Part shown: piece by piece, positions 1 through 14,391 of the stretch
Layout of the letters: each line of letters starts with the position of its first letter
Position numbering within the stretch: position 1 is the first letter of the stretch
Origin: a virus
Length of the DNA: 53,568 nt
Virus record (IMG/VR): IMGVR_UViG_3300036715_000232
Span: 1-53,568 of that record
Reading direction: 5' to 3' (one strand)
Notes under the pieces: model-generated
The model's input: only the letters and a program-made list of their open reading frames with translations
Told to the model about the DNA's origin: nothing
The model's database searches: none
Position numbers and translations under genes: made by a program

Positions 1-606
1 AGGATTCTTTGCATTAGTAGGTTTATATTGACTATGTTCTAATACATTATATTTTAAAGGTTGACCTGCATAATAAGCATATAAATCTCCTAAACTACCA
101 TAAGTTTCTTGTCTTCTATTACCTCCAGCTGCTTGAATACTGGCCCAATCCCACCAAGGTTCAAAATCTTCTCTTTGTTTAATTGGACCAGTAGATGTTT
201 TTATTGGAAGAATAACTGGAGGTTTAACATACGTAGCATCAGCAACAGCTATACCACCTTGAGCACTAGGCATTGTTTTCTTTGCATAAGGTCCTTCTGA
301 AGGAGCAGGACTATTCGTACGTGCGTATGTAAATCCTACAGAACCAGGAAGACTACCACCCATTGCAAACTGTCCACCCCATGCAGGAGAATAGTTTCTA
401 CCTACATTACTATATCCTTCTCCCACCCAATTATCTTGAGCAGAAGAACTTCCTTCATTAGCATTACCCCCATCATCATATTTGTCTAACCAACCACCAT
501 TCTTCATATTATTCTTTCCACATATATGACACACTGTTGCATCCTTCTTACTGGAATCTAATTTATTCCAGGAATGTCCACATGTGCATGTAATCTTATT
601 AGCCAT
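1..606 (-). CDS. Partial N-terminus of a zinc-ribbon virion or lysis-region protein
   Basis: The open frame begins at 606 and runs off the window edge, giving 202 residues with no stop. The N-terminus has a small zinc ribbon (Cys7, Cys9 and a C-x2-C pair at residues 27-30). It is followed by a Gly/Ser/Asn-rich stretch with the words GGWLDKYDDGG and SPAPSEGPYAKKTMPSAQ. From memory, these words recur in large crAss-like and other Bacteroidota-phage proteins located after the muzzle gene, some annotated as cargo proteins or peptidases. The start codon shares a base with the stop of the upstream gene (TAATG), so translation is probably coupled. The catalytic part, if any, lies outside the window, so the function is unassigned. 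By synteny it is the first gene after the tail muzzle. Confidence 0.75.
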   Translation of the reverse strand, partial: MANKITCTCGHSWNKLDSSKKDATVCHICGKNNMKNGGWLDKYDDGGNANEGSSSAQDNWVGEGYSNVGRNYSPAWGGQFAMGGSLPGSVGFTYARTNSPAPSEGPYAKKTMPSAQGGIAVADATYVKPPVILPIKTSTGPIKQREDFEPWWDWASIQAAGGNRRQETYGSLGDLYAYYAGQPLKYNVLEHSQYKPTNAKNP

Positions 607-1487
607 TATTTGTAAGAGATTTGACTAGGAGCCACTGTGAATTGAGAAGTGAGATGGGCATCACTTCTATTGTCTAGAATGTGCCTCACCTTAAGTTCTT
701 TAGCTCTTAGTGGTTCCTTTTTAAATGATCTTTTTCCATAATCCATATTAAGCTGGTTTACAGCCTTATCCAGAGATAAACTATAGCAACAGCTAGTTAC
801 AAACAAAGGTATGGATTTATTCTTCACTAGTCCCCAGAATGTGTTATACTGGTAGAAATTATCTGACTTAGTGAATGTTATAGTTTTACTGTCTGCACTA
901 TATATAGGATATTTCATATATTCAGACATGTTATTCTTAGGTTTAGGAACAAGAGTGAGTATTCCTGAAGACTGTTGTCCATTATATAAGACAGCTTTGT
1001 TAAACCATCTGTCATCTGTTTCCACTTTAAGATTAGCATCAAACACCCCATCATTAGAAGGTAGGTATTTATATGCCTTAGTGTAGTCTTTTATGTTCTG
1101 TAATATCTCATCCTGAAACTGATACGCATAAGGATATTCCACTATATATGGATTTATCACATCGTAATAAATATTATATAATATAGGGTTTGTTAAGTGT
1201 CTCCAAAGAGAAGCTGTATCAAGTTGTTGATATTGAATAGCAGCTAGTTCATCTGGATAGATGGTGGTTATAGGGATTCTTATTTCACCCACACATTTAC
1301 CATTACAACCTCCTACAGACTTAATAATAATCACTCTAGCCTCATCTCTTATTATCACTGAATATCCAGATATGAGGATGCTTTTAGGAATATCTGTTCC
1401 CAACACCTCTCCAAGATTATCAGAGATATCAAAAGGACCTGTACGTGATCCAGCTTTTGTTAACTTTATGACTATTGTTCTTGACAT
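606..1487 (-). CDS. Tail protein: TGPFD N-terminal module fused to a muzzle-like C-terminal part
   Basis: This is a 293-residue protein. The start at 1487 is preferred over an upstream ATG at 1526 because it overlaps the preceding stop as TAATG. Residues 1 to about 70 (LTKAGSRTGPFDI, then a Val/Ile-rich part) match the N-termini of the proteins at 10161-10964 and 10969-12882, so this is a shared virion module. The rest (SLWRHL, VEYPYAYQF, FNKAVLYNGQQSSG, YNTFWGLV and HILDNRSDAHL near the end) resembles, from memory, the C-terminal region that in other crAss-like phages ends the giant muzzle protein. Here that region is a separate gene directly after the muzzle gene. I infer a structural tail protein. 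The alternative is an independent fibre or cap protein. Confidence 0.8.
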   Translation of the reverse strand: MSRTIVIKLTKAGSRTGPFDISDNLGEVLGTDIPKSILISGYSVIIRDEARVIIIKSVGGCNGKCVGEIRIPITTIYPDELAAIQYQQLDTASLWRHLTNPILYNIYYDVINPYIVEYPYAYQFQDEILQNIKDYTKAYKYLPSNDGVFDANLKVETDDRWFNKAVLYNGQQSSGILTLVPKPKNNMSEYMKYPIYSADSKTITFTKSDNFYQYNTFWGLVKNKSIPLFVTSCCYSLSLDKAVNQLNMDYGKRSFKKEPLRAKELKVRHILDNRSDAHLTSQFTVAPSQISYK

Positions 1488-4400
1488 TATAGTATAGTGG
1501 TAGTTGTTGTTGTTGTTGAATAACAAGGATCACATTCTACATTATATGTACAAGTGGTTCCTAATGTTGATGTTACACCTGTAGGAATTATCTGTGAACC
1601 ATATATTGAACATATATAAGTGGTTTCTCCAGAAATCAATGTAATAATTTGTGTATCATCATTACAATCTGAATATGTTACATCTTGATCTACACTTGTT
1701 GTATTATTAAGAGTGTAACAGAAACAGTTAGTACATCCTGCAGTTATGTATGTATATATTACATCTGTAGGAAGTGTAGGAGCTTCACATAAACATATAA
1801 CAAAAGAGCCATCTACCTCTATTATTCCTGTACGTGTTTCTCCAAAACAACTTGTTACTGTAACCTCTTGTGGACAAATACCAGTGTTTGTTATTATATA
1901 TGTATCGCAATTTGAACACAATGTAGTGGTTGTTGTTGTTGTACTTGTACTAGAAGTGGTTGATGAAGTGGTTGTAGTTGTTGATACAGGTCTTGGAGTG
2001 TTAACAATTACATTACCATCTAATGCACAATCAAGACTAGTGGTTGATGTACTAGTTGTTGTAGGTAGTGGTGGAAAAACAAGAGTGGTGGTAGAAGTGG
2101 TAGTTTGTGGAAGCACCTCTGCAGCTAAAGCTTCTATATCACATCCTCCATTAATTCCTGAATAGAAGAAGTTGTTCTCAGCTATATACCAATTTGGAAT
2201 ATAACTGTGGAAACTCACCCATGAATTAGTGTTTATATTAAATGACAAACTCCAAGACTTATTACAGAAGTATTCTACATCTGTTAGATAAACAAGAGTC
2301 CTCACTGTCACACCATTAATTACTTGCTGTAAATAGAAGTCTCTTTCAACCTCATCATATATTATATTCTTATTAAGAGGAATATAATCCAACTTAGTGA
2401 ATATCACTCTGTCATACTTAGAATCATACACTCCATGTAACCCAAGTCCTTTGAAATGATTGTCAACCAATGCTTTAGGGAAATATCTTAAGATTTCAAA
2501 TGAAAGGTGGTCTGTAAGGAATCTGTTCACACCACTTCCAAATGCTGATATATCTTTAGCACCATCTCCTCCAACAAGGAATATTTGTCCTCTTTTAGCA
2601 TCAACAGTAACTTGTCCTTGAGGAATCTTTAATAAGAATTTATGTTGACTACCTACATATCCAAGATCTGTTTCTGCAAAATCCACAGGAGGAGCTCCAG
2701 TGAATAATGTAGGATTACCTATATAAGCAGCTTTAGGATTGCTAGTGTCAATTGTTAATAACGTATTATACAATAAACTCTTGTTCTCAAACCTAGCAAG
2801 AATTGCTTTATTCTGTATACCATCTAAAGAAGTGAGTTTTCCATAATTCTGTGGAAAATCAAATCTTGATATAGGACGATATATCAACCAGCTATTTACA
2901 GTGTCATCTGAATAGCTAACTTGAGGATCAGAATAAATTGCTCTAAATGGAAAATATGTTAAACATAAATCTTGTGTCCAATCTACAGGAAGATGAGAGA
3001 AATAGTTTTCTTTATTCTGCTTAGAATATGTAACATTATAATAATATGTATTGTCCTGAACAATAGGCACAAAGCTTTCTTGCACCCAATCATCAGGAAT
3101 ACTTGTATTTACATGAGGCCAGAAATCACCTTCTCTATCATTAAATGCTTGACGAAGATTGGTGTTAATGCTTGATTCACAATAGAAATTAGGAACACCA
3201 TAAGCAAATAGATACATCTTACCATCATAATATGTTCTACCTGGATTAACTAATGGTGGTGCAGGAAGTTGACTATTTGGACAATCAAGATTATGAGCTT
3301 TTATAGAAATAAAGTTAGTTAGTCCATATCCATATATATCATTACTCAATACAGATCTTCCTGAATACCAGTATTTTGGATAGGCTATATTACCTATCTC
3401 ATCATAGAATATATCTGAATCATCAGGAGCATTCACTCTATTATCTATAAAGAAAGGAAGCTTTGTTTTAAATGCAAATCCACTAATAAATGTATCTCCA
3501 CCAAACACTGTTTTAATAGAAGATCCTGTATATGTATCAAGGTCTATTTGGAATCCTGTATCAATTGTTTGATATGAATACATTTGTCCCCATTGATTAA
3601 TAAAGAGGTTCTTTAATGATCCATAATATGCCACCACTTGAATATCCTGTTGATTTCCTGGAATTAAACAAGCTCCTGTTTCACTTATTGTAAATCTTGA
3701 ATAATCAGATATTAAACTGATTGTTCCAGATAATAGACTAGGGGTTTTATCTGGAAATGGTAGAGGATTAGTTGTATGATCTTCAGTTCTTAAATATACA
3801 GAAGACTCTCTATTCCAATTGTTTACATTATGCTCATCCCCAACACTCTGTACTCCTGGAATAAGATATTGAGCAAGATCAAGAGTTCTTTGTTTGATTC
3901 CAATACCATTAGCTACATTAGCCCAATAGTCATAACTAGCTATTGAATTAAATGAATATGTATAATTCTTTCTAGTGATACCATTTATATAGATTTGCAA
4001 GTAGGCCTGATAGGCTGTAAACATTGCTGTTGGATTCATTGGACTAGTAAAGTTAGCAATACCATTTGAAGCTTTAATTGCATCATTTTGAGCTTCAGCT
4101 GTAAGAAGCTTATACATAGCATGCTTCTTCACCTGTACAAAATGTGCTTTTCCAGCACCAAACATTACATTTTCAAGCTTAAGAATGTTTCCTAAGAATG
4201 GTTGTCCAAATGAAGTTTCTGGTGAATTAAAAACATATCTATATCTTGAACCATCATCAAATCCTTCAAGTTGTCCTCCTACATCACTATCACCACAATT
4301 AGGAGCAGTGGCTGGAGGAGTTATTGTTTGTAATAAATCAATATCATATGACTTAGCTCCATCTGCTCTAATAGGTTCAGTTAAAGAAAGAATATCATCT

Positions 4401-6577
4401 TTTGAAGAACATGCCCAAGGCCAAGCACACACCCAAACTATAGATACAGCATCTGGATTCCTAGGATCAGTGTAAGTAAAATGAGCACCTCTTCTAATAC
4501 TACCCACTGTAATTCTATATATATTATATCTAGCAAGTCCTATAAATGTAGTGGTACCATTATTTATAATAATTGGAAAAGATAGAGAACATAAATAATG
4601 AGTTCCTGAATTTATAGCATAGATTTCTGTTGTAATAATATTAGTGGTACAATCTAAATATTGTATTTCTACATCTACAGGAGATGCAGGATTTACATCA
4701 ATTCTATATGTTTTACAGCCTTGAAAGAAAGCATTACTTTCTTTTAATATAAATGGATCTTCTCTAAGATCATTATATGGATAGTTCGGATAGTAATAAT
4801 CTGTTTCATCTCTATTATACTTACCAACATTTCTAAGAATACCCTTTCCTGTTATAGACTTATTTGTACTTCTATCACCTCTCACTATCTTAAATCCAAC
4901 AACATCAGCCTTTTGTGAATCTGTAAGATTTGAATTAATAATAAGCTGTGACACCTGAGAAACATCTAATTTCACTCCTATTGGAAATACAGCATCATTC
5001 TGTATCATTTTCACTTCATACTTACCACTAACAATTGTAGGAACAGCACTTTCAAATATAGGAGAGACTAATACATCAGGGAATTTGTGGTGTCTAATAG
5101 GTTGGTTAGCAAGAGCTCCCCAAACATTATCATTACAAGGATAGAGTTCTGTTGATTCCCAATAAGCGAAATCACCATATTCCCATTCTCCTTTATATGC
5201 AGAATTATTGGATTTACCTGGAGAATCTGATAATTTTACACCTGTATTATATATCTTCCAATAAGGAGATGTATTAGTGGCAGGATCAGGTTCTCCTATA
5301 AAATCAGGATTTGTAACACTCACTGGAGTTTCATCAGTGGCTTGTACTATTCTACCTGGAATATGAAATCCATCAGTTTGTTTACCATTCTTAAGAAGGA
5401 ATACAATCTCAAATGCATACACTTCATCTCTAAGATAACCTCTTAGATTAGTGGCATTTAACTCATTAGAGTAGTTTTGATCAGCTGGTATTCTATAGGA
5501 TTGCCACTGAAGAGTTATTTGACTAGCTATCTCTTGATAGTTAATCCTATCTATAGATGTAAGATTGTCCCATACAAGCACATCTTGTACAGCTGTAAGA
5601 TCTTGAGCAATTTCATAATAAGGAAACTTCTCAAATATATCTTCTATTGATAGTCTTATTTGTGTTTGATTCTGACCAGTGTATGTAACTTGTCTGCTAT
5701 TATCATCAATAAAATATGTACCCACTAATTCAACAGATGCAATATTATTTATTGTCTTAATTACAGCTAAATTAAAATATTTAAAATATCCTGTTACATC
5801 TATGTTATTGACATTCAATACAATAGATCTACCTACAGGATAATCAAAATTGAGAGTGGTGATTTGTGTATTAGCAATAGGGGTGGGATTTGTGACAGAA
5901 TAATAGGATGTATATCCATCTCCTATAGAGTCACAATATTGTATTGCAAATTGATATGTTCCAGCTTTTAATTCTCCACCAGTGGTAATATCTACCACTT
6001 CTAGTTCAGGGATATTAAAGTTTGGTTGTATTTTAAGCTTGTTACAATCTATCACTGGTATGAGTTGATTATCACAAACTCTTGTACCAGGCTTTGTTGT
6101 ATATACGCTATCTATATGATCTAAGTCTAAATATCTTCTAGGATTGAGTCCATCTGTCCAATAAATCTCTGTAGTACAATTAGTTATCTTATGTACCACT
6201 TTATGGATGGGATAGTCTATATTAAAATTAAGACAAGGAGCACTCACGTATGTGCGATAGATGCAATCATTATTTTCCATGTAACCAATCTCACTATCTC
6301 CTGTATCAGGATTAACTAGAAAGAATACATGCTTTGCTTTCTCATTAATAAAATGTGTACCTATTAAATGAAAGCCTGTAGGGAAAGTTACACATAGCTC
6401 ATTCCCTGGCTCATTCTGATAGTTAACAGAATTAGCATCAAAGTTTTCAACAGCAGCATTTAGGGCATATGAAACAACTCCTTTCTGAATCTGATTATTA
6501 GTCTGATCCATGTTCATTCCCAACCTACCTAAATTATATTCTGGTGTTATATTCCCACCTTGTTGTTGTTCAGCCAT
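1487..6577 (-). CDS. Giant tail muzzle / stabilisation-type protein with C-terminal Cys-rich domains
   Basis: This 1696-residue protein is the largest in the window. Its size and its place after ring-type proteins match the crAss-like muzzle protein, often annotated as P22 gp10-like tail stabilisation protein, which closes the distal tail tube. The first 1500 or so residues are beta-rich, with Gly, Asn, Tyr and Asp abundant. After the segment SYIPNWYIAENNFFYSG the protein changes character: Thr/Ser-rich linkers (TTTSTTT, then a longer run) separate two roughly 65-residue Cys-rich domains (beginning CSNCDTYIITNTG and CTNCFCYTLNNT). The chain ends on another poly-Thr run. Homologous Cys-rich domains occur in the protein at 12910-14391. 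The expected muzzle C-terminus appears to sit in the next gene. The start is 6 bp from the upstream gene. Confidence 0.85.
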   Translation of the reverse strand: MAEQQQGGNITPEYNLGRLGMNMDQTNNQIQKGVVSYALNAAVENFDANSVNYQNEPGNELCVTFPTGFHLIGTHFINEKAKHVFFLVNPDTGDSEIGYMENNDCIYRTYVSAPCLNFNIDYPIHKVVHKITNCTTEIYWTDGLNPRRYLDLDHIDSVYTTKPGTRVCDNQLIPVIDCNKLKIQPNFNIPELEVVDITTGGELKAGTYQFAIQYCDSIGDGYTSYYSVTNPTPIANTQITTLNFDYPVGRSIVLNVNNIDVTGYFKYFNLAVIKTINNIASVELVGTYFIDDNSRQVTYTGQNQTQIRLSIEDIFEKFPYYEIAQDLTAVQDVLVWDNLTSIDRINYQEIASQITLQWQSYRIPADQNYSNELNATNLRGYLRDEVYAFEIVFLLKNGKQTDGFHIPGRIVQATDETPVSVTNPDFIGEPDPATNTSPYWKIYNTGVKLSDSPGKSNNSAYKGEWEYGDFAYWESTELYPCNDNVWGALANQPIRHHKFPDVLVSPIFESAVPTIVSGKYEVKMIQNDAVFPIGVKLDVSQVSQLIINSNLTDSQKADVVGFKIVRGDRSTNKSITGKGILRNVGKYNRDETDYYYPNYPYNDLREDPFILKESNAFFQGCKTYRIDVNPASPVDVEIQYLDCTTNIITTEIYAINSGTHYLCSLSFPIIINNGTTTFIGLARYNIYRITVGSIRRGAHFTYTDPRNPDAVSIVWVCAWPWACSSKDDILSLTEPIRADGAKSYDIDLLQTITPPATAPNCGDSDVGGQLEGFDDGSRYRYVFNSPETSFGQPFLGNILKLENVMFGAGKAHFVQVKKHAMYKLLTAEAQNDAIKASNGIANFTSPMNPTAMFTAYQAYLQIYINGITRKNYTYSFNSIASYDYWANVANGIGIKQRTLDLAQYLIPGVQSVGDEHNVNNWNRESSVYLRTEDHTTNPLPFPDKTPSLLSGTISLISDYSRFTISETGACLIPGNQQDIQVVAYYGSLKNLFINQWGQMYSYQTIDTGFQIDLDTYTGSSIKTVFGGDTFISGFAFKTKLPFFIDNRVNAPDDSDIFYDEIGNIAYPKYWYSGRSVLSNDIYGYGLTNFISIKAHNLDCPNSQLPAPPLVNPGRTYYDGKMYLFAYGVPNFYCESSINTNLRQAFNDREGDFWPHVNTSIPDDWVQESFVPIVQDNTYYYNVTYSKQNKENYFSHLPVDWTQDLCLTYFPFRAIYSDPQVSYSDDTVNSWLIYRPISRFDFPQNYGKLTSLDGIQNKAILARFENKSLLYNTLLTIDTSNPKAAYIGNPTLFTGAPPVDFAETDLGYVGSQHKFLLKIPQGQVTVDAKRGQIFLVGGDGAKDISAFGSGVNRFLTDHLSFEILRYFPKALVDNHFKGLGLHGVYDSKYDRVIFTKLDYIPLNKNIIYDEVERDFYLQQVINGVTVRTLVYLTDVEYFCNKSWSLSFNINTNSWVSFHSYIPNWYIAENNFFYSGINGGCDIEALAAEVLPQTTTSTTTLVFPPLPTTTSTSTTSLDCALDGNVIVNTPRPVSTTTTTSSTTSSTSTTTTTTTLCSNCDTYIITNTGICPQEVTVTSCFGETRTGIIEVDGSFVICLCEAPTLPTDVIYTYITAGCTNCFCYTLNNTTSVDQDVTYSDCNDDTQIITLISGETTYICSIYGSQIIPTGVTSTLGTTCTYNVECDPCYSTTTTTTTIL

Positions 6578-6582
6578 TTATA

Positions 6583-7503
6583 TTAATTATTTCTTCTCCA
6601 CCCATATCTATTAGTTCTATTGGGTAGTTCGTACATATTAAATCTATTCAAGTCTTGTTCTATCCTTCTTTGCTTAGCGTATACATCTTGCTTCTTAATT
6701 TCAATATCTGCCATGATGAATGCTTCATCTGACAATTGTTTGTAATACGCAAGCTTTTGTTGTATCTGTTGAAAGGTTTCGTCTGTTAATTGATTAGACA
6801 GAGTTTCGAACACCTTGTATTTAATAAATGCTTCAATATATTCCCTAATACGAAAGTTGTCTGGAATCATTTGATTACCACCACCATCATATTCTGTAGC
6901 ATAAAATATCAAATGCACCACTCCATTTCTGAAATTAGTGACAAACTTGTTATCTCTAATATCAAATGAATCTGGTGCATTACTGCCAAAATTTGCACAA
7001 TCTAATGTGCAATTTCCCCTTACAGAGATATTTCCTGGTTTCAGGAGATATTGCTTTGTAAAGGTTTGTGTCATTTCATTATTAGTCTTGTAAACAGCTT
7101 GTATGATTTCAGGAAGACATCCTGAACAAGCAGCTTGATTACATACAGAACACACTTGACCACCAACAGTGAGAGGGCTCACTTGAATAGTGGTTTGTCC
7201 ATTAGCTTGAGAATAGAATGAATTAGCTGTTTGATAGGGGAATCCTGCTGCTGTTGTACAAAGCCAAGCTTCTCTAACAGCAAAAAAGTTATCAGGAAGT
7301 CTAGCCTCAAAGTTATCTATGAAAAGACCATTCTCACTAATTACATATGTAGCTCTTCCTAGCTTTCTTAAACATTTGTCCAGATATGTAGGAAACATTA
7401 AATCATCAACAGCTCCTGTATCAAAATAGCTTTTAAGCTCTTCTTTTACAGTGGAATAAACTACCTCAGGGCTTATAAAATTATATTTGTAATAATAGCT
7501 CAT
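6583..7503 (-). CDS. Tail ring / tail-tube structural protein
   Basis: This 306-residue protein lies immediately upstream of the muzzle gene. In crAss-like phages this position holds a ring protein connecting portal/tail tube and muzzle (ring protein 1 in the crAss001 virion model, by synteny and memory). The N-terminal part (SPEVVYSTVKEELKSYF, then LRKLGRATYVI) looks like the helical start of head-tail adaptor proteins. The middle contains a Cys-rich loop (CSVCNQAACSGC). The C-terminus is a long charged helix rich in Lys, Gln and Arg. The start ATG overlaps the TGA of a 25-codon ORF upstream (ATGA), consistent with coupled translation. The exact virion position is inferred, not read from the sequence. 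Confidence 0.75.
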   Translation of the reverse strand: MSYYYKYNFISPEVVYSTVKEELKSYFDTGAVDDLMFPTYLDKCLRKLGRATYVISENGLFIDNFEARLPDNFFAVREAWLCTTAAGFPYQTANSFYSQANGQTTIQVSPLTVGGQVCSVCNQAACSGCLPEIIQAVYKTNNEMTQTFTKQYLLKPGNISVRGNCTLDCANFGSNAPDSFDIRDNKFVTNFRNGVVHLIFYATEYDGGGNQMIPDNFRIREYIEAFIKYKVFETLSNQLTDETFQQIQQKLAYYKQLSDEAFIMADIEIKKQDVYAKQRRIEQDLNRFNMYELPNRTNRYGWRRNN

Positions 7504-7593: not shown

Positions 7594-8067
7594 TTACTTT
7601 TTCCACTCTCTGTAGAGATGCTGATATTTATCATCAGCTCGTATGTAATGAGAAAGGAGTCTGGAAGTTGTTCTTGTGGGTTTGAAGTACCAGAGATGAA
7701 CATTCTTCATTCTTGTACTCTCTTTAAACCAAAACCATCCAAAGAAATAACCCTCTGTATGGAAATTAAAATTGTAGATTCTTTTACCTTTCTCTCTGCT
7801 TTTCTGCCAGTCTATTGGGAGATTTACAAACTCATCATTAATTCCTGTTTGTCTTTTCCTCTTCTTTTTATTAACAGAGAACTCTCCAAACCCATAGGGA
7901 AGTCTTGCTCTCTCTCCAGTTTCTAGAATATATTCTTTGAAAGACTCATTGAATGTATAAATCACATTTCTCCACTCATCAAATGTGAGCTGTATTGAAG
8001 GATTCTTTTTACAGAAATTGTTGTAGTTTTCCTTACTTGAGCTTCTCCAATCAATCTTTATACGCAT
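7594..8067 (-). CDS. IHF/HU-like DNA-bending protein within the tail cluster
   Basis: This is a 157-residue protein. Residues 30-70 (FKEYILETGERARLPYGFGEFSV, then a KKKRKRQ basic stretch) follow the IHF/HU pattern of an amphipathic helix, a Gly-Glu-x-[VA]-x-[LI]-P turn, G-F-G-x-F and a basic arm. The C-terminal half is aromatic-rich (YFFGWFWFKE) and is not part of classical IHF, so this is a long, divergent member. Crassvirales commonly carry IHF-subunit genes beside ring and muzzle genes, which fits. It may bend or condense phage DNA, or serve as a virion component. The stop overlaps nothing downstream. Its ATG abuts the upstream 238-residue gene, whose stop codon lies at 8067 (TAATG-type junction). 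Confidence 0.7.
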   Translation of the reverse strand: MRIKIDWRSSSKENYNNFCKKNPSIQLTFDEWRNVIYTFNESFKEYILETGERARLPYGFGEFSVNKKKRKRQTGINDEFVNLPIDWQKSREKGKRIYNFNFHTEGYFFGWFWFKESTRMKNVHLWYFKPTRTTSRLLSHYIRADDKYQHLYREWKK

Positions 8068-8783
8068 TATTGTTTACTCACTTGGTCATCCTTATTATCA
8101 CTAGTCTTATCATCATCAATTTTGAAATATGTAGACAGTAACTTTTGAGATGTTAGCTCTAATGCCTGTTTTTCTAAATATCCAGGGAGAGCATACGGTT
8201 TATCTAATGGGTTTATACAATACTCTTCATCAGTGACATTCTTTCCACAATCACAATCTTGAGAATAGAGCAGCTCATTTGGAACATCTTGTTCAAATAA
8301 AGCAGCTATTCTCACAGCTTTAAGAAGAGGATTGCTTATATACAAATAGCCATTAGCTATCCAATAGTATTCCTCATTCTTTATAATAGGAAGTTTTATT
8401 AGATTGATGTATCTATTGATTGTGATTTCTTTTATTTTCTTACCTATACCACTCATAGCGTTTATAGAATAAACACCCTGAATCAGATATTGGTAGTTTC
8501 CTTCAGCTATCCTTGGAATCTTAATTCTTGTTCTAGCTACAGAACAAGGATCTACAAATTCACAACATTCAGATATAGGCACTTCTATAAGTTCCATACA
8601 TGGAATAGTTGTAAATAATGTATCTGTAGCCCAAAGCTTTCTAAGATTAGTTTCTCTCTTAACAAGTAGAAGAGTGTTGTTTCTAATTTCAGAAGCTATT
8701 ACTCTATCCGTTATTAAATTATCAGTTGATAATAATTTATGCATACTACGAACATCACTTACTAATTTTCTTAATGTTGACAT
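8067..8783 (-). CDS. Tail structural protein (ring-protein candidate)
   Basis: This 238-residue protein lies between the metallophosphoesterase and the IHF-like gene. By synteny with crAss001 it sits where ring protein 2 is encoded. The sequence is mixed alpha/beta, starts with a helical stretch (LRKLVSDVRSMHKLL) and contains the Cys-bearing segment ISECCEFVDPCSVAR. The C-terminus is acidic and Lys-rich, with a low-complexity DDDKTSDNKDD tail. There are no transmembrane segments or catalytic motifs. A homologue is expected in most crAss-like phages. The assignment as a ring protein is inference from gene order. Confidence 0.65.
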   Translation of the reverse strand: MSTLRKLVSDVRSMHKLLSTDNLITDRVIASEIRNNTLLLVKRETNLRKLWATDTLFTTIPCMELIEVPISECCEFVDPCSVARTRIKIPRIAEGNYQYLIQGVYSINAMSGIGKKIKEITINRYINLIKLPIIKNEEYYWIANGYLYISNPLLKAVRIAALFEQDVPNELLYSQDCDCGKNVTDEEYCINPLDKPYALPGYLEKQALELTSQKLLSTYFKIDDDKTSDNKDDQVSKQ

Positions 8784-8785
8784 GT

Positions 8786-9994
8786 TTATATTCTTTCTTC
8801 AAACTCAGCTATTTTACCCTTTGTAGGATGATACACTAGGGCTAAGCCAGCTCTTATATTATTAACATAATTGTGATCTAAATGCCATCTATCTACACCA
8901 GATAAACTAGGCATTTGTTGTATTCTAACACCCTTCACTTCTTTAGCCATATAATGGTGTTTATCTCCTGTATGAACTTCTCTATATGTAGCATTCCCAA
9001 ATTCTGAGGCAGTTTTACCTGTAGCAAATACTAAAGGAAGGTCATCTATCTTACAGTTCCCATGATGATATCCAATAAAAGTGTTTCCTAATATAGTGGA
9101 TTTAGTTGTTGAATGTTCTCTTTGGAAAGATATATCTTTGTCATTCCTGAAGAACACCTCAAGGGCATGTGCTAGATAGAAAGATTTAGTTCTATCGTGA
9201 TTCCCTTGTACAAGAATGACCTCTAGTTTATGGCAGTGATTCCTTAAGAAATCAATAGCCTTAACCAGTAGGTCAAATCCATATTCATACTCATTATCAT
9301 ATCCCACCAAAACATCCTGAGGAGTACCATTGGTTGTAGTATTGTGATAGTTATCTGTGTGGAAAAAGTCATTTGAAATAGGAAAAACTATCTTGTTTAT
9401 TTCAAAGCTTCCCATCACCTTCTCTGTAAGGCCCATTAGAGTGCCTAGAAACTGTTTCATCTTATCAACGATAGTTTCACCCTCTAAGGTCTTTTTAGCC
9501 AAATGGAAGTCAGCTATTGACATCTCAACATCAATCTCCCCACCCACATGCTTCTTCTTACCTGGACTAACATATTTTGGTTTATATTCACCTAAGAACT
9601 TTGTAAAGTCTTCTAGTGTATAATCTGTTGGTTTTCTGAGAGTTGCAAACACTGAAGAGGTAAACTTACCATTACTCTTCATTTTTGTCCAATAGTTAGC
9701 AATCTTATACTTCTCTAGATTAATCTTGTGCAACTTAGCTAGTTCCAAATCATCTTTTGGTTCATAGCTAAGTTCAATTGTACTTTCCATTGAGCCAGAC
9801 TCAACATTCACTCTAGTGTGATATTCACCTATTTCATCACTATCTTCCTCATCATTATTCTTTTTCCTAAGCTCTGATAAGAGCAAATCAACTTCTGATT
9901 CAGATATCCCAAGTGTTTCAGCATAGTATTTTTTGCTTTTCTTACGTACAAGTAGCTGTTCTAATTGAGATAACAAATTAGAAAAATTCGTCAT
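8786..9994 (-). CDS. Calcineurin-like metallophosphoesterase
   Basis: This 402-residue protein begins with a helix-turn-helix-like segment (SKKYYAETLGISESEVDLLLSEL, about residues 20-42) and an acidic linker. The metallophosphoesterase core follows. Metal-ligand motifs are in order: a D-x-H-type first motif (SIADFHL), an NDFFHTDNYHN segment, GNHDR, GYHHG and HTGDKHH near the C-terminus. These are the five canonical phosphoesterase blocks with Asp, Asn and His ligands intact, so an active phosphodiesterase or nuclease of the SbcD/Mre11 superfamily is likely. It sits among tail genes, just downstream of a terminator, and probably starts its own transcript. A role in DNA processing at entry or exit is possible; the substrate cannot be read from the sequence. 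Confidence 0.85.
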   Translation of the reverse strand: MTNFSNLLSQLEQLLVRKKSKKYYAETLGISESEVDLLLSELRKKNNDEEDSDEIGEYHTRVNVESGSMESTIELSYEPKDDLELAKLHKINLEKYKIANYWTKMKSNGKFTSSVFATLRKPTDYTLEDFTKFLGEYKPKYVSPGKKKHVGGEIDVEMSIADFHLAKKTLEGETIVDKMKQFLGTLMGLTEKVMGSFEINKIVFPISNDFFHTDNYHNTTTNGTPQDVLVGYDNEYEYGFDLLVKAIDFLRNHCHKLEVILVQGNHDRTKSFYLAHALEVFFRNDKDISFQREHSTTKSTILGNTFIGYHHGNCKIDDLPLVFATGKTASEFGNATYREVHTGDKHHYMAKEVKGVRIQQMPSLSGVDRWHLDHNYVNNIRAGLALVYHPTKGKIAEFEERI

Positions 9995-10160: not shown

Positions 10161-10964
10161 TTAATCTTTTATTAAACGTACAGAGAATCCATCTATCTTA
10201 TCATATACCGTCCTGAATAGGTAACTACTGTTATAGTTCATGTAACGGTACCATGCTGAAGCACCAACTCCACTTGCACTCCACCAGAGTCCGTAGTTCC
10301 CAAAATCGAGGAATGTACCATCAAAGTAACGGAGGCCACCTGGTAATCCAGTAAATCCAGTAGTGTTTGTTGCACCACTATTTGGAACATTCCAATGGAT
10401 AGTTCCAGTTTCTTTCAAAGGTCCACCAGCAATTGGTTCTCCACCTAAAAAGGTTGTTAAAGTGATCCATTCTGCATCTGTTGGAACATGATAACCAACT
10501 GGTGCTAATCCTCTCACATCATTAACAGCATACCAGTTGTACAATCTTCCATAAGTTGCAGCATTAGCAGGATCATTATTATAATAACACCATGCTCCTG
10601 TTGTTAATGCTACCCAAGCTGTAGGATCAGTTACTTCAGGAATAGGATCTCCATTTCTATAAGTGGTAACACTTAAATTACATCCTGTCCATATTTGAGA
10701 ATCTATTGTAACATCAGGAAGTGAACATGTGGTTGTTGTGGTAGTTGTCATAGCTGGAAGATCAATGTAATTTATACAAGCTCCAGCAGACATAATTCTT
10801 ACCATTGTTGTGCCATTAGGAACTACATAAGATGTATATCCTGCAACTAGGTCAATCTTTAGAACTCCCACCTCAAAAGCTGATATATATCCATCAACAT
10901 TTGAATATAGATTAAAAGGTCCTGTATCAGTTCCAGCTGTAGTTAATGTAATAATTAGTATCAT
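10161..10964 (-). CDS. Tail fibre / receptor-binding protein with FISUMP domain
   Basis: This is a 267-residue protein. Residues 1-72 are the shared TGPF module (LTTAGTDTGPFNLYS; the ending SAGACINYIDLP). A TTTTTTT linker at about 74-80 leads to a Fib_succ_major (FISUMP) domain running to the C-terminus. Recognisable blocks are VTIDSQIWTGCNLSV, YNWYAVND, GYHVPTDAEW, NTTGFTGLPGG and LWWSASG, with SVRLIKD at the end. FISUMP domains have a C-type-lectin-like fold and are abundant in Bacteroidota and Fibrobacter surface proteins. In a phage tail protein this suggests a tip adhesin acquired from host-type sequence. The gene is 4 bp from the LRR-like fibre gene and is followed by a strong terminator. 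Confidence 0.88.
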   Translation of the reverse strand: MILIITLTTAGTDTGPFNLYSNVDGYISAFEVGVLKIDLVAGYTSYVVPNGTTMVRIMSAGACINYIDLPAMTTTTTTTCSLPDVTIDSQIWTGCNLSVTTYRNGDPIPEVTDPTAWVALTTGAWCYYNNDPANAATYGRLYNWYAVNDVRGLAPVGYHVPTDAEWITLTTFLGGEPIAGGPLKETGTIHWNVPNSGATNTTGFTGLPGGLRYFDGTFLDFGNYGLWWSASGVGASAWYRYMNYNSSYLFRTVYDKIDGFSVRLIKD

Positions 10965-10968
10965 TGGT

Positions 10969-12882
10969 TTATGGTGCTATGGTTATTAGTATATCATTTG
11001 GTGGTGGTATTGCATTTAATGTAGCAAGAGCTAATGTAACTGCAGGACCACCAGAGGTTGTACCACATAAAGTTATTGCATTATCAAATGATGTTGTTAC
11101 TGTCCAACTAGTGGCTGCTAAATTTATAATCAATTGATCAAGCTCAGCAGTTGGTATAAAATATGTTCCTCTATCAGCAGTGGGGTTTACAATACAAACA
11201 TTCATATTAGGATGCCATACACTAGATGCACTATATGTATTAACATGATGATTACCATATAGAGAAAACTGTGTTAAATTAGCCTTTGGCATAAAATGAA
11301 TATCTCCTGTAATTCCAGATAAATCAGATGTGCCTCCTCCTTTAAAACTAATATAAAATCTTATAAAGTTTGAATGTATAGTTGCAATATCACCATATAA
11401 TGTGCTAAATCCTCCATGGAAGAATCTAACACAAGTGGAAGGAATTGTTGCAATATCTCCAGTTATAGTGTTCTCACCACGTACTATCCAATAAGTTGTA
11501 GATGCTGGTATATCCATTATATCACCATATAGGGTGTTTAAACCAGACACTGTTATTGTTATTAAACTACTTGGTAAATTAGCTATATCACCAGTTACAG
11601 TGTTACCTGTTCCTGGAGGTGCTAACGTTTCATCATTCTCAAGTGATAATGTTGTCAAAGCTGTACTACCAGTTAAACATGATATATCACCACTTGGACT
11701 ACTATATCCTTGAATTACAATACGTTGCATGCTTGAATTAAAATTACAAATTGAACCAACAACTGTATTTAATCCTTTTAAATCAAATTCAACTAATGTA
11801 GTGTATGTAGAAAATTCACTTAAATTACCAGATATAGTGTTTCTACCTCCAATTACTATTCTAACTATCTGAGTATCAAATGCTCCAGGAAATGTTGATA
11901 CATTTCCAGCAATTGTATTTAATCCATCAATTCTTAATAGAGTGAGTCCTGTTGGTAAATCTATTATATTTCCTGAGAGCAAGTTAGCTTCAGCTCCTAG
12001 AAGTGAAATTTTAGTTAGCGTACTTGGAAGATCAGCTATATCTCCTGTAATTTGTCCACGTAAGCTATAAAGTGTATCTAGATTTGTTGGAATTTGTAAA
12101 GCTGTAGAATTTAAATTCCAACTTATATTAGTGATAGATTCTAAATTTACAAGCTTTGTAAGCTCACTACCTATAAGAGTTACACTTCCTGTAGTAAATG
12201 ATTGACCAGCTATACCACAATTTAAAGATTTTATTAATTCAAGACTTATAGCTTTAATCTTAATTGTTCCTGTAAAAGGAGTGGCATATATATGATCATC
12301 AATTGTATTAAAAGTTTTTGATCCAGTGTATAAAATCTGAGTGCCATCACCATAATCAATCATCCATGGTATAATAGCTTGATTAGGTGTATATGGACTA
12401 CCCCAAATTGTAACTTGTCTAGGATTGAATCTATCAATACCAACAGCTTGAAGATTTAAAGTTGGCCAACAATCTGTATCATCTTGACAAATATCTGTTC
12501 CAGATGTAATATTTACAGTTCCACCAACATGTGTAATAGAACTTGTATATGTACATACATTAATTGTAACATCTGTAAATGTAAATGTATTTGTTCCTCC
12601 ACCAAAGATTGACCAACTCACTATTGATGTACCAATAATTTCTATTGTGTTACAAACAGGAAGTGATAAATCTATTGTTACAGAATTATTACAAATCAGA
12701 TTATCAGATTGTACAGTAATACTTGTAGTTGCAGGATTTGTAATAACTACATTTACACCAGCTTCTAAAGTAGTTTTAAGAACATTACTTAAAAGAGGTG
12801 CATGACCTGGTTCTTCATAGATATCAAAAGGACCAGTGAATGGACTAGATGATGTTAATGTTACTGTTACTATATAAGACAT
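10969..12882 (-). CDS. Tail fibre with leucine-rich-type solenoid repeats
   Basis: This is a 637-residue protein. The N-terminal 70 residues carry the shared TGPFDIY module. Two beta-rich segments with Cys follow, including a PKD-like part (TIWGSPYTP, MIDYGDGTQI). From about residue 210 to 560 there is a degenerate solenoid of 22-26-residue repeats with the pattern L-x-G-x-N-T-(I/V/L)-x-G-(D/N)-I-x-x-(I/L)-P. Examples are GLNTIAGNV, GRNTISGNL, GLNTLYGDI, GENTITGDI and FSTLYGDI. This resembles bacterial leucine-rich or BspA-type repeats. It is probably a host-surface-binding fibre. The start lies 27 bp downstream of the Cys-rich repeat gene in the same cassette. Confidence 0.82.
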   Translation of the reverse strand: MSYIVTVTLTSSSPFTGPFDIYEEPGHAPLLSNVLKTTLEAGVNVVITNPATTSITVQSDNLICNNSVTIDLSLPVCNTIEIIGTSIVSWSIFGGGTNTFTFTDVTINVCTYTSSITHVGGTVNITSGTDICQDDTDCWPTLNLQAVGIDRFNPRQVTIWGSPYTPNQAIIPWMIDYGDGTQILYTGSKTFNTIDDHIYATPFTGTIKIKAISLELIKSLNCGIAGQSFTTGSVTLIGSELTKLVNLESITNISWNLNSTALQIPTNLDTLYSLRGQITGDIADLPSTLTKISLLGAEANLLSGNIIDLPTGLTLLRIDGLNTIAGNVSTFPGAFDTQIVRIVIGGRNTISGNLSEFSTYTTLVEFDLKGLNTVVGSICNFNSSMQRIVIQGYSSPSGDISCLTGSTALTTLSLENDETLAPPGTGNTVTGDIANLPSSLITITVSGLNTLYGDIMDIPASTTYWIVRGENTITGDIATIPSTCVRFFHGGFSTLYGDIATIHSNFIRFYISFKGGGTSDLSGITGDIHFMPKANLTQFSLYGNHHVNTYSASSVWHPNMNVCIVNPTADRGTYFIPTAELDQLIINLAATSWTVTTSFDNAITLCGTTSGGPAVTLALATLNAIPPPNDILITIAP

Positions 12883-12909: not shown

Positions 12910-14391
12910 TTATACTGTACAATCTATATCATCTGTACAACTTGTTCCTGTTATTATACTAGATGTAGCATTTGTACATACACTACTAAAACTATTTTCT
13001 TGAATACATCTAGCATATACACCCTCAGTTAATGTTTCTATCACTTGGTCACCATAACAATTAAAATATGTAATTTCACAAGATCCTCCACGATTTGTTT
13101 CTGTAATTGTAATTTCAGTACATAAACATGGACTACATGCAAAAATATATTGTGATGTGTCACATGCATTTCCTATTGTCCATGTAACTCCTCCAGGTGT
13201 ATCAGTGAACGGATCTTTTCCACAAACTCTAAGTTTATTACCAATGCCTCCAGGAATCACTGCATTACCAAATCCAGGTGCACCAGGACAAACTGTCCAG
13301 TTTACTAAAACTGGAAAAGTACTTGAACTAGTAAATTCTATACAAGCACAATCTATACAACATCCAAGATTTGTTAATGTTAAAGTGCTATGTGCTATAG
13401 GTTCATAACTTACATCTGCACAGAATGTTAAATCTGTTGTACTTCCTGCATGAAAAACACCATTACAATCATAATATGTATAATCATTCAAACTACCTGC
13501 TAAATTATATCTTTCACAAGCACATGTTGTTGTGGTTGATGTGGTACTAGTAGATGAAGTGGAAGAAGATGTTGTTGTTGTTGTAAATATTTCTAAACTA
13601 AATGTAAAATCACAAGTGGCAGCAACACAACCATCATCCACTTCTATCACTTGAACTATTGGTCTATCAGGAAGAGAATCTTCACAAGCACAAATTTTTA
13701 CTGGTGGTGATCCTGCAAATATACCAGGTACAATAACTGTTATAGGATTTCTATCACAATCATCAAAATTAAATGTAACATCAAAATCATATTGAGTGTT
13801 TATGAGTGCATATGTTTTACATACACAAGGAATTGAACATCCTTGAGATATAAAACTTATTGTTACATCACAACTTGAAGTTATAGATGCATCACAAGCA
13901 CAAACATATAAACTTTGTCCTGCATTAATAGTGATTTCTGTCCAGCAAGGAGTTATACCACTACAATCAATAAACTTAACCACCTCTTCATAAGTGGAGT
14001 TATTAGTGAGTTGGTAGGTTCCACAACCAAAACATATAGGATGTAATGTTGTAGAAGTGCTAGTTGTGCTTATTACACAATCTTGTATATAATCACAATC
14101 TATACATTGCTGTATAATTTGTGTACAAAATAGATTAAATATCTCTGTATTATTAATTAATGTATCAATAATATTCTGAACTAGATTTACACCACATAAA
14201 GCACTGTCTATCTTTTGAAGAATGAGAGACATATTATCACATGTGTGTACATCTATACATGGAAGATTAGGTCCTGTATAGAAGACAAGGTCTGTGCTAG
14301 TTTTAAATGTTGTGCAAGGATCAAGTCCACAACCTCTTGGATAAGTGGTTTGTGTATGACCAAAACATGGAGTTCCTGGAAGACAAGACAT
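12910..14391 (-). CDS. Tail fibre with about five tandem Cys-rich domains and Thr/Ser linkers
   Basis: This is a 493-residue protein. After an N-terminal helical segment (NMSLILQKIDSALCGVN) come about five repeats of a roughly 60-70-residue domain. Each begins C-x-C or C-x2-C-x-x-Y/T, continues with a beta-strand ending in D/N-C, and has an internal C-x-C. Starts are CFGCGTYQL, CVCKTYALI, CACERYNLA, CIDCACIEF and CLCTEITIT. Two Thr/Ser linkers (TTSTSTT and a longer run of about 20 residues) separate blocks. The same domain occurs twice at the end of the muzzle protein, so the module has moved between virion genes. It probably forms extended decorations or fibres. The ligand is unknown. Confidence 0.82.
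   Translation of the reverse strand: MSCLPGTPCFGHTQTTYPRGCGLDPCTTFKTSTDLVFYTGPNLPCIDVHTCDNMSLILQKIDSALCGVNLVQNIIDTLINNTEIFNLFCTQIIQQCIDCDYIQDCVISTTSTSTTLHPICFGCGTYQLTNNSTYEEVVKFIDCSGITPCWTEITINAGQSLYVCACDASITSSCDVTISFISQGCSIPCVCKTYALINTQYDFDVTFNFDDCDRNPITVIVPGIFAGSPPVKICACEDSLPDRPIVQVIEVDDGCVAATCDFTFSLEIFTTTTTSSSTSSTSTTSTTTTCACERYNLAGSLNDYTYYDCNGVFHAGSTTDLTFCADVSYEPIAHSTLTLTNLGCCIDCACIEFTSSSTFPVLVNWTVCPGAPGFGNAVIPGGIGNKLRVCGKDPFTDTPGGVTWTIGNACDTSQYIFACSPCLCTEITITETNRGGSCEITYFNCYGDQVIETLTEGVYARCIQENSFSSVCTNATSSIITGTSCTDDIDCTV

Follow-up and report, generated by a model that had tools for sequence, protein, structure and literature searches.

A lineage of crAss-like phages that encodes the tail muzzle in separate genes, with variable adhesin-like tails at the chain break

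The muzzle, which closes the end of the phage tail, is among the hallmark virion proteins of the Crassvirales. Characterised as a hexamer that serves as a gate at the tail tip, it has been described as one chain, whereas the lineage reported here makes it in two or three. In crAss001 it is gp44, a single chain of 1371 residues. The IG2/crass block of gp44 spans residues 318-1021, its ring-joining domain and propeller resemble the nozzle of T7, and the tail of which it is part uses disulfides in its hub and barrel (PMC10172136). One-piece muzzles are also found in Lbo-JY46, csAssE-Sib (annotated 'Muzzle protein'), FpV4, phi4:1 and MT837925. Length variation of the muzzle is described in the open-access literature, in which we found no description of a split one.

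The window analysed here is a stretch of 53,568 nucleotides, an IMG/VR fragment in which the late operon of a crAss-like phage lies on the minus strand, the strand of every muzzle, ring protein and adhesin-like feature located below. Its chain A gene (1487..6577) encodes 1696 residues, made up of a muzzle body (residues 1-1476) and an added tail (residues 1477-1696). Chain A belongs to the Crassvirales muzzles by sequence, scoring 145.4 bits against Pfam PF25731 (crAss_MUZ), where the cutoff is 27, and E 8e-110 against PHROG 37948. It belongs to them by gene order as well: the ring protein genes lie directly upstream, with that of tail ring protein 1 (6583..7503; PF24228, CrAss_Ring_1, above cutoff) adjoining the muzzle gene and that of tail ring protein 2 (8067..8783; PF25702, CrAss_Ring_2, above cutoff) lying beyond a small gene (7594-8067). 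A 402-residue ORF with a GNHDR motif, by eye perhaps a phosphoesterase, occupies positions 8786-9994 between the ring genes and a group of adhesin-like genes.

Chain A departs from the muzzle family close to its end. The muzzle part extends through SYIPNWYIAENNFFYSG, which ends at residue 1474; alignment with one-piece muzzles stops at residue 1475-1476, and FFYSGIN (2150..2170), closing at residue 1476, is the last muzzle segment before the break, which we call break point 1. Beyond it lies a variable C-terminal tail of 220 residues (1490..2149) that begins with a conserved GGCDIEALA, continues through Thr/Ser linkers and Cys-rich segments, and finishes in poly-Thr, the final residues being YSTTTTTTTIL.

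The rest of the muzzle is found on the next gene. Chain B (606..1487; 293 residues) starts with an ATG that overlaps the chain A stop codon in a TAATG, and it carries TGPFD, FNKAVLYNGQQSSG, YNTFWGLV and HILDNRSDAHL where the initial annotation of this locus had placed them. That annotation had assigned the muzzle C-terminus to the 293-residue protein, and residues 87-293 (609..1229) are indeed the end of the one-polypeptide muzzle in relatives. This part is 29% identical to Lbo-JY46, where the residues matched by chain B directly follow the end of the chain A match; the latter ends at record position 83444 and the former starts at 83443, within one CDS (1654 aa). The A- and B-homologous halves abut in csAssE-Sib too. 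Chain B residues 92-291 match positions 1588-1781, the last 194, of the 1783-position one-piece family PHROG 15100, the first part of which is matched by chain A, and the two chains together cover both ends of the family. In unsplit relatives an FFYSGIN-type segment leads, in most cases through a short turn, into the (L/I/V)W.H of chain B, as in FYTG-RSDLES-IWLHN (L149) and FYAG-LPNS-IWKHN (L268). Every unsplit relative has the C-terminal part. A scan that used the Lbo-JY46 C-terminus as its query found no relatives. The beginning of chain B, residues ~1-74 (1266..1487), is a domain not present in unsplit muzzles, which we call TGPFD after its motif. A Pfam search of chain B alone gave no hit, and annotators should be warned that this end of the muzzle may be mistaken for a small gene of another kind.

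Profile alignment places the break near residues 1232-1238 of the 1371 in crAss001 gp44. Because this is outside the IG2/crass block, we infer that the break falls in the C-terminal propeller and ring-joining part of the muzzle. The link to gp44 required profile alignment and fold search; searching the PDB by sequence, whether with A, with B or with the A2 and A3 profiles, turned up nothing significant. When the region comprising the A-end and B was modelled from the one-piece L149 protein, its top fold matches were both crAss001 muzzle structures, 7qol (E 3.7e-9) and 7qok (E 4.3e-9), and propellers were among the next matches. The muzzle fold of the C-terminal region is therefore seen on the unsplit L149 model, the split pair itself being known from sequence. 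Modelled alone, chain B gave a TGPFD domain with pLDDT mostly ~80-90 (residues 1-60) and a poor muzzle part (mostly 25-67), whereas the homologous part of the one-piece L149 model mostly reaches 63-89, with low confidence around the break (residues 415-446). This difference fits a chain B muzzle part that would need chain A, in a comparison where the proteins and alignments differ. A fold search with the chain B model alone returned nothing significant, with weak Ig/FN3-like matches for the first domain.

The same arrangement is widespread. Among all loci fetched from IMG/VR and GTDB, 244 are split and 19 unsplit; A and B are separate ORFs in every one of the 244, each with TGPFD on B, and are fused in the 19, none of which has TGPFD. 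The split into two at an adhesion-module site, first read from the window, is thus borne out and extends to a whole clade. In a tree of A-end and B segments a single branch (support 100/100) separates all split rows from the rest; it was recovered in 100% of 200 bootstrap trees and adjoins the unsplit pair L110/L149, and a quick tree of 69 rows agrees. The tree is unrooted, and long outgroup branches make its deeper joins unsure. Most simply, then, the split appears to have arisen once and to have been kept since. How it arose is another matter. The initial annotation held that an inserted block broke the muzzle gene, and the TGPFD domain on every chain B agrees with this, but some split A chains have almost no block (15 residues in L005). 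Recombination that placed a TGPFD head in front of the C-terminal muzzle part would produce the split in a single step. The split lineage, seen in hundreds of contigs, is known here from metagenomic viral contigs only. A GTDB genome scan gave a single match, on a 3-kb contig that was binned, perhaps wrongly, with a Tissierellales MAG, and a TGPFD search in 50,697 phage records gave only one insignificant match (E 0.8). On the small Tissierellales contig, the ORF directly after chain B (L174:2301-3080) looks by eye like a GIY-YIG endonuclease.

The free C-terminus of chain A is hypervariable while both cores stay conserved. Across 92 distinct loci the chain A tails range from 15 to 1690 residues (median 178.5) and contain 26% Thr, against 7% in the core, with runs of at least five Thr in 84 of them. 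Close relatives can differ sharply in the tail: L026 and L028 are 98% identical in B and 96% in the core but 34% in the tail (288 vs 117 residues), and L043 and L048 are 98%, 100% and 39% identical in the same three parts. A Pfam search found no domain match in most tails; DUF5122 propellers are present inside two long ones, and in L174 the ORF that precedes chain B finishes with a Laminin_G_3 (lectin-type) domain, poly-Thr and TAATG.

The N-terminus of chain B, for its part, looks like the head of an adhesin-like gene family. As the initial annotation had noticed, the TGPFD module is shared, and beyond chance (profile E ~1e-9), by chain B and two further genes of the window, at 10161..10964 and 10969..12882 (profile E 8e-10 for each). 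The first of these consists of a TGPFD domain, a Thr linker and a Fib_succ_major domain (PF09603, E 1.6e-42) in which the gene ends with GFSVRLIKD; domains of this type are often diversified by DGRs. The second encodes 637 residues with repeated TGDIADLPSTL-like motifs that have a leucine-rich or beta-helical look and no Pfam match. A neighbouring gene with Thr linkers and Cys-rich segments (12910..14391) has modules in common with the chain A tail (E 2.7e-4 against the Cys-rich stretch, with low-complexity filtering on). Other DNA lies between A and B in 33 of 91 distinct loci, and in 32 of those 33 it holds one or two TGPFD-headed genes, in most of which a Thr linker and then a variable stretch come after the head. 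Two different TGPFD genes stand in tandem between the chains at L042:8943-9989. A search for reverse transcriptase (PF00078) found none in 23 records, namely the window record, which is a fragment, and 22 related ones, with controls detected, and a DGR as the source of the tail variation is unsupported on that ground.

Relatives have a second site at which the muzzle is interrupted, ~55 residues before break point 1 and intact in the window, where we place it by alignment at approximately 2317..2350. Many split loci have in-frame inserts there, as do the unsplit phi4:1, FpV4 and L099. In L002, L003 and L134 the muzzle gene is broken at this site too, giving three chains: chain 1 closes with a Thr-linked tail; chain 2, which has an ATG start of its own (MAQNNCTPVYRRTVIDVTDPEYFCNKSW... 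in L002), comprises nothing but the stretch from one site to the other and a further tail; and chain B comes third. A muzzle segment of ~65 residues thereby stands as a small gene of its own with a Thr-rich tail (L002:9169-9978, L134:9396-9728, L003:9069-9971). The tree requires three changes for these second splits, which may therefore have arisen up to three times.

A pair of cysteines accompanies the first break. In the window these are the Cys of GGCD just after the break in chain A (codon 2141..2143) and Cys65 of the chain B TGPFD domain (codon 1293..1295). Of the 118 split loci that are distinct and have both ends readable, 116 combine a Cys among the first five A residues after the break with a Cys in the TGPFD of B; in L095 the A Cys comes at position 17, and L137, the only locus without the B Cys, also lacks the A Cys. 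The TGPFD Cys is invariant in 35 aligned B proteins, and unsplit relatives have no Cys at the corresponding turn. This pattern, including the coupled loss, which is seen in one locus only, makes an interchain disulfide between the two residues plausible. The stand-alone TGPFD genes carry the Cys as well, so the B Cys need not pair with A.

Taken together, we think it probable that these phages build a multi-chain muzzle, in which the propeller is re-formed from two chains and swappable adhesins are displayed at the tail tip. Chain A would supply the muzzle up to the short turn in the C-terminal beta-propeller region and chain B the remaining ~200 residues, the two re-forming one muzzle subunit without a peptide bond at the turn. 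The gene boundary would leave a free A C-terminus and a free B N-terminus on the outside of the muzzle, the former bearing a tail that can be exchanged, built of Thr-rich linkers and binding-type domains, and the latter a conserved small beta domain, TGPFD, which also heads the stand-alone adhesin-like genes of the same phages. The A Cys after the break and the TGPFD Cys of B would probably tie the chains together. A bolder proposal, which we offer tentatively, is that a peptide bond of the essential tail-gate protein has been replaced by a disulfide-stapled joint and that propeller loops serve as sockets for adhesins in a process that repeats itself, as in L002, L003 and L134. Each break would then provide a free C-terminus on which one adhesin could take the place of another while the fold stays intact.

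The initial annotation went further and suggested that the stop/start overlap holds the chains at a fixed A:B ratio. Translational coupling of this kind would be an addition to the split and no alternative to it, and we regard it as doubtful. The TAA stop of A and the ATG start of B do overlap by one base in the window junction ATACTATAATGTCA, but the operon has a TAATG at five junctions besides this one, six in all, and TAATG is thus no mark of the muzzle split. Moreover, in 58 distinct relatives with A and B adjacent the gap varies between -1 and +29 nt, all three frames occur, and the overlap is kept in only four. Coupling may operate in the window, yet a fixed ratio cannot depend on it in general.

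It is unlikely that B has become a separate structural protein, derived from the muzzle C-terminus and no longer completing the muzzle, as might be suspected from its having a domain of its own and from the genes that can separate it from A. None of the split loci has a chain A with its own copy of the ~200 C-terminal residues, and chain B keeps a length of 288-294 residues in nearly all of them, with dN far below dS in both its TGPFD and its muzzle part among relatives. Production of a single polypeptide after all, whether by frameshifting, by stop-codon readthrough or by splicing of the transcript across the junction, is very unlikely. Introns and recoded stops abound in Crassvirales (PMC7886860), and the one-base overlap in the window would suit such a route, but the variable gap and frame and the intervening DNA described above argue against it, and the would-be intron would encode a conserved domain that is under purifying selection and has an initial ATG throughout the aligned set. 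In the window region and in six relatives Rfam gave no match to a group I or II intron, and with no conserved junction context we reject all three routes. Assembly error, frameshift or gene decay, for which an apparent extra frameshift in the A tail of L003 could be cited, has a negligible chance of explaining why one and the same split recurs, across many assemblies, in 244 loci that share a single origin and a conserved start, length and selection.

The chain breaks fall exactly where variable adhesion-like domains attach, which suggests that the tail tip, beyond the fibres alone, may act as a receptor-binding scaffold for interchangeable host-recognition parts. The split loci also show where, in nature, the propeller tolerates breaks and fusions, and they offer a testable disulfide.

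Compared with crAss001 gp44 (PF25731; PDB 7qok, 7qol, 8ckb), the split muzzle is alike in sequence family, in its ring-gene neighbourhood and in the fold of its C-terminal region, and differs in being two or three chains with extra domains at their free ends. The muzzles of Lbo-JY46 (XAI97387.1), csAssE-Sib, Cellulophaga phi4:1 and Flavobacterium FpV4 are homologous over A and B but have neither the gene break nor the TGPFD domain, although those of phi4:1 and FpV4 share with split relatives the in-frame insertions near the second site. Among T7-type nozzles, the portal-tail complex of phage GP4 is a weak fold match to the L149 region model. We know of no T7-type nozzle protein that is split or bears adhesin tails. 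Adhesion-domain variation links the phages described here, whose Fib_succ_major gene is present in the window, to the fibre modules of crAss-like phages that carry C-type-lectin-like domains, e.g. as DGR targets (PMC12386605), but in the split-muzzle phages the variation looks like module swapping at a gene end. The split muzzle is thus a variant of the Crassvirales muzzle, one that is no longer a single polypeptide but whose homology is not in doubt.
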